This document shows, piece after piece, positions 49,413 through 52,682 of a DNA stretch of 58,396 nt. Location of the stretch: assembly GCA_025056895.1 (NCBI GenBank), contig JANWVJ010000004.1, positions 1 to 58,396 on the forward strand, in the 5' to 3' direction. The position numbers and the translations under genes were made by a program. Every line of letters begins with the position of its first letter. Position 1 is the stretch's first letter. The notes under the pieces were generated by a model, which was given only the letters and a program-made list of their open reading frames with translations, had not been told where the DNA came from and ran no database searches. Origin of the DNA: Thermoflexales bacterium. Lineage in GTDB: Bacteria; Chloroflexota; Anaerolineae; J036; Brachytrichaceae.

Positions 49413-49495
49413 GCGCTTATGCACAGTTGACGCGACTATTGTTAAAATTCGATTTAACTCGCGCTTCAGATACACACCGCAGGTTAGGAGGAATC

Positions 49496-50641
49496 ATGGC
49501 AAGGCACGTAGGCCGGCTGGATTGGTTCGGCGCGTATGGGTTCATCTACCACCTAGATGGCAGACTGGCCGCACGCGTGGATCGTTCAGGGTTTGACGGG
49601 AAGGTCAGCGCCGGCGTACTGCACAAGTCGATCGTGGCCTTTTCCGCAAGCCGCGCGCCCGGTCACACCCATCCCCTCGCACATGACGTTAAGCTGCTCA
49701 GCGACGAAACCGACCCCGCGCTGTTACGAGCGTGCTTCGAAAGCCATAATACCGACATCTGGCCGTTGGTGGCTACACGCTATTTATCTTCGCTGCCGGA
49801 AAGAGAGGCGCTCGAAGTCATCCGAGGCAAGCTGGCTCAGATCGACGATCCGCTGGTGCTGCTCTATCGCATTCCGCCGCGTGTCTTGCTGTTGCCCGAA
49901 GCGCGTGATGTACGTGAACGGTTTCCGCTCGAAGATCGGGTGGCGTTGTACGAGTCTTTTCTCGACCTGGCGCCCTTTCGAGAAGAGGTCATCGCTTGCC
50001 TATCCCAGAAACCATCAAACAGCCATAATCGATTGTGGCGTCGCTTGCTGGCCGATGAACATGACTTAGAACGCTTGCGACAACACTTTCTGAGCCCAAT
50101 AGCCGGCGAATGGCAGGCTGTCGCTTCGCGCTACCTGGCTAAACTGTCGCCGCAAGAGGCGCTGGCCGTCATCCGCACCAAGCTGGAAGTGGTGCACAAA
50201 GCGTCTATCTTGTTGCCTTACGTGCCGGCAGCCGTGTTGAAGCTGCCCGAGGCCCGCGACGTGCGAATTGGCTTGCCGGCCGGCAAGCGCCTCAAGCTGC
50301 TTGCCGGTTTCGAGAACCTCGACGCCTATACCGATGAAATCATCCAAACACTGGCCAGAGCTTCTGCCGAATCGGCAGCCGCTTTCTGGAAAGAAGCGGC
50401 TCCGCGCCTAACCCCCGGCAGCGCACTCTATGCTCTAGCGCCTGCTGCTCCGCTCGGCACGGCTGCTTCTGAGGCCATACAACCCGTCGTACATCCTATT
50501 GATTTTGAAACACAACACGCAGAGGATGAGTCAATCGGCACAGCAACGGCCGAGGACAACGGGCACGGCGCCGCTAAGGCGTTGACGGCGGCAGCCGATC
50601 CGTTAAATCCACCCACTCTGCCGGCGCAGCCGCTGGGCTAG
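49496..50641 (+). CDS. Unrecognised protein: cold-shock-like N-terminus plus two 117-residue repeats
   Basis: I do not recognise this 381-residue protein. Residues 5-50 resemble a cold-shock/OB fold: GRLDWFGAYGFI, then after a loop GVLHKSIVAF, in the order of the RNP1 and F-V-H regions of cold-shock proteins. Residues 70-186 and 187-303 align without gaps as a direct repeat, with 43 identities in the first 100 positions by hand count. Both contain RYL-x2-L-x3-EAL-x-VI-R-x-KL and an identical LPEARDVR octamer. The last ~75 residues are acidic and low-complexity. The ATG at 49496 has AGGAGGAA before it, whereas the frame extends far upstream inside the MFS gene without a start signal. It overlaps the convergent glycosyltransferase gene by 68 bases. 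An RNA- or DNA-binding role is a guess from the N-terminus. Confidence 0.75.
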   Translation: MARHVGRLDWFGAYGFIYHLDGRLAARVDRSGFDGKVSAGVLHKSIVAFSASRAPGHTHPLAHDVKLLSDETDPALLRACFESHNTDIWPLVATRYLSSLPEREALEVIRGKLAQIDDPLVLLYRIPPRVLLLPEARDVRERFPLEDRVALYESFLDLAPFREEVIACLSQKPSNSHNRLWRRLLADEHDLERLRQHFLSPIAGEWQAVASRYLAKLSPQEALAVIRTKLEVVHKASILLPYVPAAVLKLPEARDVRIGLPAGKRLKLLAGFENLDAYTDEIIQTLARASAESAAAFWKEAAPRLTPGSALYALAPAAPLGTAASEAIQPVVHPIDFETQHAEDESIGTATAEDNGHGAAKALTAAADPLNPPTLPAQPLG

Positions 50642-52682
50642 AGGCAGACTGCACCTGTAAACGCCGGCCGTCTGTACGCCGATACATGCCGACCCGCAGG
50701 ACGTCCCCGGCTTGCCGGCCACCTGGCACGGTGACCGGATGTGGATCAACAATCACATCACCGCTGCGCCAAACAGGCAGCGGCAGGTAGCCTTCTGCCG
50801 GGCTGCTGTCATGCTGGGCGATCAGTTGCCCATCGCGCAGCCAATGCACAAATACCGCCAAGTCTTCGGGCACAGGCTGCATCGCACGCCAACGCAGCGT
50901 GATGGTGTAGGTTGCGGCGCCGTTGGCCGGCGGCGCCACATGCGCGTCTTGAAGCACGATTCCTTGCTCAAACTGAGCGAGGGGAGGTTCTTCTCCACCT
51001 GACCGGGGCGCCGCATGCACAGCGATAAACGCGCGGCGCGGCGTCGAGTCGAGATCGCCTTGCGCGAATGGGCCGATCTGAATAGAAAGCTCGCTGTTGG
51101 GCGGCAAGGCCTGCCTCAACATCGACCAGTCGTGATTGGGATCAACCAGCAACACAATCGGCCGGTTGCGGGGGGCGTCAGGGGGCAGGTCAGATGTCAC
51201 AATCTTTATCAGGCCGGCTTCTACCGCCGGCGACAGAAACAGCAATGTCGGATTGTTGGTTGCCAGTCGCGCATCGAGCCACACCTGTCCGGCGCCGTAG
51301 CGTTCAACCGAAGCATTGACCGCGCGCCCTAACTGCACATTACTGTCTTCGAGCCAGTATGCCGTCATCGGATGGCGGACGTAAACGCCAAAGTAGTCGC
51401 CGGCTGCCTGCAACCCGCTCAAGATAAGGGCGAGGCTGGCCAGCACAGCCGGCGGACTGATAAGGCGTTGCAAACGAGCCGGATAAAGATTGAGCAAGCC
51501 GCGCCGCGAAAGCCAACGCAAAGTCGTCTCCAGACCGCTCGCCGCCAGAATGCATACGGCCGGCAACGCTCCAATAGCGCGCAAAAAGTGTGGCGCATCT
51601 TCGGCCAACACGGTCGGCATCAGAAAGATCACCAGCCAAAGCAACACCCACACAGAAGCCGCTGCCTCCCACGCCGAAGCCGGTGACATACCATGCGCCA
51701 AGCCTTGGGCAGCACGCACCCCACGCAGCGCGCGCCAGACGCAGATAACCAAGCCAACAAGGAAAGCCGCTGCGGGCCAATCGGGATAGACCGGGCGCAG
51801 AGAGAGATTGTGTCGCCAGATGCGATCGCCTTGCCAGGCGATCATCCCAACAGTCTTCAGGATGTTGCCGAGCAAGGCGCCGAGCAAATCGCCCTGGTTG
51901 ATCTGTGAACTGAGAACAGAAACTTGTCCGGCGCGGGTGAAGTACACATCTGGATGGCGCGCCAACCAAATGAGCAACGGCAGCAGAGTGACCACTGCGC
52001 CGGCGAAGAAGGCAAGCCACGCGCGGCGTGAAGCAGGCAGAGCGACTTTCAAGGCCGGCACGAGAGCAGCAAGACCGACAAACCCGATGAACAACAGGGC
52101 AATCAACTGGCCCGACGTATACGTGTAAAAAGTCAATCCGAACGCGGCTCCGGCACACACAGCCAACCCGTGGCGGCTTGCCCCACTGCGCAGCCAGGCC
52201 GCAAACAACGCTGCCGCAACGCATAACCAAAACGGCAGCAGGATCGCCCGGAAAGCAACACGGCTGATCGCCAAATGCCAGAAAGTCACAGACAAGATCG
52301 CCGCAGCGAGCACACCCGTGCGATGTGAGAACAAAGCACGGCCGGCCGCATAGATGGCGATCAGCGTCACGACGCCGGTTAACGCAGACACGATGCGCAA
52401 GGCCTCCGGTGTGCGGCCAAGTACGGCGATGGATGCGGACAGCAAGTACATGAACATGCCTTCGCGCCCGTTGTTCGCCGTGAAATACAGAGCCAATCGG
52501 CCACGCAAGACATTCAGCGCATCGAGACCGTAAAACCCCTCATCGCGGTATAGGCCGGGCGGCAGATCGCCGATGTCAACGAGACGCAACGCTGCGCCGG
52601 CAAGAACGACAAGCAATAAGGGCAACCAATCTCGCCAACGCGACAACCAAAACGGGGGGTGACGCGAGTAGGCCGTACCCAT
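50574..52682 (-). CDS. GT39-like membrane glycosyltransferase (ArnT/PMT type)
   Basis: The 702-residue protein has about 10-12 membrane helices in its first two thirds. The first extracytoplasmic loop has the Asp-containing motif GDLPPGLYRDEGFYGLDALN that suits dolichyl-phosphate-sugar dependent GT-C enzymes. The C-terminal ~200 residues are a soluble, extracytoplasmic domain with beta-rich sequence. Substrates are unknown; surface glycan or protein glycosylation is likely. No ribosome binding site precedes the ATG, but TGATACAAT ends eight bases before it, suggesting a leaderless message. Its 3' end overlaps the duplicated cold-shock-like gene. Confidence 0.8.
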   Translation of the reverse strand: MGTAYSRHPPFWLSRWRDWLPLLLVVLAGAALRLVDIGDLPPGLYRDEGFYGLDALNVLRGRLALYFTANNGREGMFMYLLSASIAVLGRTPEALRIVSALTGVVTLIAIYAAGRALFSHRTGVLAAAILSVTFWHLAISRVAFRAILLPFWLCVAAALFAAWLRSGASRHGLAVCAGAAFGLTFYTYTSGQLIALLFIGFVGLAALVPALKVALPASRRAWLAFFAGAVVTLLPLLIWLARHPDVYFTRAGQVSVLSSQINQGDLLGALLGNILKTVGMIAWQGDRIWRHNLSLRPVYPDWPAAAFLVGLVICVWRALRGVRAAQGLAHGMSPASAWEAAASVWVLLWLVIFLMPTVLAEDAPHFLRAIGALPAVCILAASGLETTLRWLSRRGLLNLYPARLQRLISPPAVLASLALILSGLQAAGDYFGVYVRHPMTAYWLEDSNVQLGRAVNASVERYGAGQVWLDARLATNNPTLLFLSPAVEAGLIKIVTSDLPPDAPRNRPIVLLVDPNHDWSMLRQALPPNSELSIQIGPFAQGDLDSTPRRAFIAVHAAPRSGGEEPPLAQFEQGIVLQDAHVAPPANGAATYTITLRWRAMQPVPEDLAVFVHWLRDGQLIAQHDSSPAEGYLPLPVWRSGDVIVDPHPVTVPGGRQAGDVLRVGMYRRTDGRRLQVQSASSPAAAPAEWVDLTDRLPPSTP

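Follow-up and report, generated by a model that had tools for sequence, protein, structure and literature searches.

What kind of protein is encoded by the open reading frame at 49496-50641 on the forward strand of this window (the whole stretch of 58,396 nucleotides that was analysed, from a draft genome of 3.3 Mb), and what might it do? The frame is intact from ATG to TAG and encodes 381 amino acids. The original prediction described an unrecognised protein with a cold-shock-like N-terminus and a perfect-length tandem duplication, in a layout with no described family. The product is apparently a soluble, stand-alone protein, in which a basic N-terminal domain (pI 10.2) precedes two repeats and an acidic tail. 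The features discussed below are as follows.

49420..49448, forward: candidate own promoter, TGCACA-17-TAAAAT with an extended TG (9/12 in a consensus scan; a consensus match only)
49486..49492, forward: Shine-Dalgarno sequence AGGAGGA, just 5' of the ATG at 49496 (sequence; invariant in three species)
49496..50641, forward: whole gene, 381 amino acids plus stop (orthologs at 69-70% identity; dN/dS about 0.09-0.17 outside the tail)
49496..49702, forward: N-terminal domain, residues 1-69, putatively degenerate cold-shock-like (profile scores against shuffles, invariant residues, low-confidence strands within 6-29)
49703..50053, forward: repeat 1, residues 70-186, predicted helical (self-alignment, orthologs, AlphaFold2)
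50054..50404, forward: repeat 2, residues 187-303, predicted helical (self-alignment, orthologs, AlphaFold2)
50405..50638, forward: C-terminal tail, residues 304-381, acidic (pI 4.4) and mostly predicted disordered (pLDDT <50 from residue 318)
50574..52682, reverse: convergent neighbour, a PMT/ArnT-like membrane glycosyltransferase (PMT_2), whose 3' end runs 68 bp into the tail of the gene

The gene in Roseilinea and beyond

Full-length orthologs are present in both of the other Roseilinea genomes compared, such that all three genomes of the genus carry the gene; the two are recorded publicly as Candidatus Roseilinea mizusawaensis AA3_104 and as an uncultured Anaerolineae bin. The genus comprises photoheterotrophs of hot springs, and knowledge of them comes from preliminary enrichments and metagenome-assembled genomes (PMC8446752). 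When the window gene is compared with its orthologs, third-position changes predominate, and dS is 1.0-1.6 as against a dN of 0.14-0.19 (a ratio of about 6-11) across the N-terminal domain and the two repeats. In the tail dN is about 0.68 and dN/dS about 0.4-1.0, and neither its sequence nor its length is conserved among the orthologs. This substitution pattern shows the gene to be real, with a protein under purifying selection and an unconstrained tail. A spurious or decaying reading frame might be suspected from the restriction of the gene to one genus, from neighbours that give no function and from the little-constrained tail, but it is highly improbable given three intact orthologs, a dS several times dN, and a conserved ribosome-binding site and -10 hexamer; a spurious frame is refuted outright by the substitution pattern. 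The TAAAAT hexamer of the candidate promoter is invariant in the three species despite their different upstream genes, as is the ribosome-binding site, and the gene is therefore probably its own transcription unit.

Protein or profile searches, covering 28 family and order genomes and samples of about 400 genomes from Anaerolineae and 400 from Chloroflexota, gave no credible relatives outside Roseilinea. Candidates in seven genomes were low-scoring, and the four that were inspected either had stop codons within them or were situated on the antisense strand of, or next to, unrelated genes. Two N-terminal profile matches in other genera, containing a repeated match to residues 25-65, proved to be class II aldolase-like, with only a G-H-T/S-H-P motif shared. 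We also considered a hidden ortholog at the same site in sister genera; at the sites inspected, an unrelated gene in the same direction comes after the glycosyltransferase. Viral contigs, phages and plasmids contained no match to the 381-residue protein, and a phage, plasmid or viral origin was dropped for this reason.

The neighbours are an MFS_3 exporter, an NMT1-like binding protein and the PMT-like glycosyltransferase, and none of them points to RNA. The glycosyltransferase is the only conserved neighbour, and lies in convergent orientation in each of the three Roseilinea genomes; the other genera inspected have a different neighbour. Its 3' overlap with the gene, 68 bp in the window, is about 70 bp at one orthologous locus (L006) and is replaced by a short gap at the other (L007). 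We note that a trio of genes encoding a GNAT acetyltransferase, an SPFH/slipin protein and NfeD adjoins both of these orthologous loci, and recurs in another family of the class. An anti-phage defence function was rejected, as the protein matches no PADLOC profile and no defence gene lies beside it.

Internal duplication and predicted fold of the repeats

Alignment of residues 70-186 with residues 187-303 is gapless and contains 45 identities in 117 columns, of which 43 are within columns 1-100, and LPEARDVR is present in both repeats of the window protein. The duplication originally described is thus reproduced exactly, including its perfect length (117+117 residues). The local alignment of the two repeats scores 178, compared to 28 +/- 5 in shuffled copies (maximum 53 of 1000), and in a self-comparison of the protein the diagonal at offset 117 scores 189 with the runner-up offset at 31. 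Both orthologs hold the 117-residue register without an insertion or deletion, and their second copy of the motif reads LPDARDVR. Repeats 1 and 2 share 38-39% identity with each other, whereas the same repeat in the orthologs and in the window copy shares 74-77% (values given for repeat 1); the divergence between the repeats far exceeds that between the species, and by this comparison of sequences the duplication predates the separation of the Roseilinea species. A gapless repeat of this kind is normal for an internal duplication maintained under selection. No smaller repeat is evident inside the 117-residue unit, the best internal diagonal scoring 12.7 where shuffled sequences average 13.5.

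Searches of Pfam, NCBIfam, PHROGs, PADLOC and PDB sequences with the whole protein returned nothing above chance, and Pfam and PDB sequences returned nothing for the N-terminus or the repeat unit alone. TPR rows were obtained for the protein at sub-threshold values only (E 0.05-0.15), and none with single repeat units. The view that the protein belongs to no known family therefore holds across these libraries, none of which assigned one.

An AlphaFold2 model, computed with an alignment of three sequences, places helices throughout residues 74-314, with block pLDDT values of 69-93 (over 71-320) and low confidence for residues 1-67 and the tail. The repeat units are thus predicted to be helical and a structural repeat is seen; the model supports the two copies forming one continuous stack of short helices, in the manner of an alpha-solenoid scaffold. 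Foldseek found no match with E <0.001 in the PDB or among viral models. The best row for the whole protein is 8qxd_N (E 9e-3, TM 0.23), and 8c6j_T reaches a TM of 0.36; these matches are generic helical ones or meaningless, and no family was named from them. The resemblance to alpha-solenoid proteins of the HAT, TPR and HEAT types lies in the all-helical stacked repeats, with spliceosomal and other helical-repeat chains as the top Foldseek rows, but TM-scores are 0.1-0.36 and there is no sequence similarity. The Roseilinea unit differs further from these in its length of 117 residues, which comprise some nine short helices and in which no smaller repeat could be detected.

The N-terminal domain and its possible relation to cold-shock domains

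The Pfam cold-shock profile PF00313 gives no row for any of the three orthologs even at an E of 10, and a search of the genus genomes at that threshold missed the gene. With a custom cold-shock domain (CSD) profile, built from a small set of Anaerolineae CSDs, CspA and three divergent fused CSDs, the orthologs score 9.6, 8.9 and 7.3 bits, compared to a best score of 5.9 in 3000 shuffles. Profile-profile comparison with hhalign gives a probability of 66 over residues 2-54, with values of no more than 9.8 in 300 column shuffles and 0.1 for the reversed sequence; with a smaller CSD set the probability is 46. These shuffle tests are somewhat optimistic, as the likeness was first picked by eye and the profile comes from a small set. 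The aligned stretch begins at the N-terminus of the protein and extends through residue 54 with one three-residue gap relative to CspA, and residues 55-69 fall outside the profile-profile match.

The residues that are kept and those that are lost fall into different halves of the domain. W10, F11, Y14, G15, F16 and I17 are invariant in the three species, and W10, F11, Y14 and F16 align with the aromatics of the RNP1 half of a CSD. Within the RNP1 motif K-G-x-G-F-I and the W-F preceding it, the W-F and the Y-G-F-I residues are present and the K-G pair is missing. The RNP2 motif V-F-V-H-F is not kept, the aligned residues being A26 R27 V28 D29 R30; CspA residues F31, H33 and F34 correspond to R27, D29 and R30, and this R/D/R combination is invariant in the three species. 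Judging from this alignment, loss of the F31, H33 and F34 equivalents would weaken single-strand binding. AlphaFold2 modelling of the N-terminus alone from three sequences builds a three-strand meander (strands 6-10, 15-20 and 23-29; mean pLDDT 56) and no OB fold, and a Foldseek search with this three-sequence model found no OB-fold match.

Similarity to the CspA family thus consists in the N-terminal position, the size (about 67 amino acids), the G-x-L-x-W-F and Y-G-F-I residues of the RNP1 half, and the profile match to residues 2-54. The differences are that PF00313 does not detect the protein, that three residues are absent before RNP1, that RNP2 is replaced, and that the CSD-like part is fused to a long helical region and is not modelled as an OB fold. 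More likely than not, and with partial support from these comparisons, residues 1-69 are a degenerate CSD descendant that would have kept the W-F/Y-G-F-I half and lost the RNP2 half. The cold-shock part of the original prediction thus finds backing in profile comparisons that beat every shuffle, whereas its OB fold appears neither in the model nor through Pfam or the PDB. It is rather unlikely, though far from negligible, that the N-terminus is instead a small lineage-specific beta domain, in which the WF...YGFI likeness has arisen by chance or convergence. Such a domain would fit with the lack of a Pfam or PDB sequence match, of an OB fold in either model and of RNP2, but not readily with profile scores in excess of every shuffle or with an alignment running from the N-terminus through residue 54 with a single gap.

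Cold-shock proteins in the genus and possible functions

A PF00313 search detects no canonical CSD in any of the Roseilinea genomes, all three of them drafts of 87-99% completeness. Canonical cold-shock proteins are few in the family, and number one to four in other sampled families of the class. Their absence from Roseilinea is likely, albeit not certain because the three genomes are drafts.

No family could be assigned to the layout, but the layout itself, originally thought to be without a described counterpart, does have a precedent in the same family, Roseilineaceae. There, a protein from another genus (L033:157-1692, genome G197) has TPR/DUF7017 repeats and, C-terminal to them, a sub-threshold CSD. 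This protein also combines helical repeats with a weak CSD-like domain, although its CSD is C-terminal, its TPRs are recognisable, and the Roseilinea repeat profile found nothing in that genome. CSD-like OB folds are likewise combined with coiled-coil or HEAT-like helical domains in the CoCoNuT restriction proteins (PMC11090510); the Roseilinea gene differs in that neither McrB/McrC nor a nuclease or defence gene lies beside it, and in that PADLOC gives no match. Other CSD fusions were observed in passing. One (L032:1492-3183, G275) places a CSD at the N-terminus of a large protein of the RAMP superfamily (type III CRISPR-like), with PF03787 just under its cut-off; a second (L048:97-1686, G007) has a C-terminal CSD on a large protein that is RAMP-like by eye; and a third, from a sister genus (L034:1483-3189, G218), has a divergent, sub-threshold CSD-like domain N-terminal on a DEAD-box/Helicase_C protein.

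We tentatively propose, as a reading that could well be wrong, that the protein pairs a duplicated helical scaffold with a degenerate CSD-like domain and an acidic tail free of constraint, and that it serves as an RNA- or RNP-associated adaptor or regulator. Contacts with RNA or with an RNP would then be made through the basic N-terminus, and a protein partner would be bound by the helical stack. The protein could also cover part of the cold-shock-protein role in Roseilinea, given that the genomes of the genus yielded no ordinary cold-shock protein. About equally likely is that nucleic-acid binding has been lost from the N-terminal domain, and that the protein is purely a protein-protein scaffold, consisting of the helical stack and a small beta cap. 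This is consistent with the replacement of RNP2 residues by R/D/R in all three species, with the helical repeats being the best-resolved part of the AlphaFold2 model, and with the weak Foldseek resemblance to helical-repeat scaffolds described above; however, the N-terminus is basic and is conserved as strongly as the repeats, and its six invariant residues (W10, F11 and Y14 to I17, albeit among only three sequences) exceed what a passive cap needs. Improbable in our estimation is a genus-specific RNA-binding regulator with a repeat family of its own, formed in a thermophilic, phototrophic genus that lacks ordinary cold-shock proteins, from a new 117-residue helical repeat and a remodelled CSD with an RNP2 face turned over to arginines and an aspartate.

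The gene is lineage-specific and uncharacterised, an orphan conserved within one genus, and does not amount to a strange new system. It illustrates clearly what a young protein family looks like, being confined to a single genus and carrying an in-register internal duplication under selection. Should its N-terminus not be a remodelled CSD, the gene is one more conserved orphan and mainly an annotation target; if it is one, it would show the reuse of the fold by a lineage apparently without standard cold-shock proteins.
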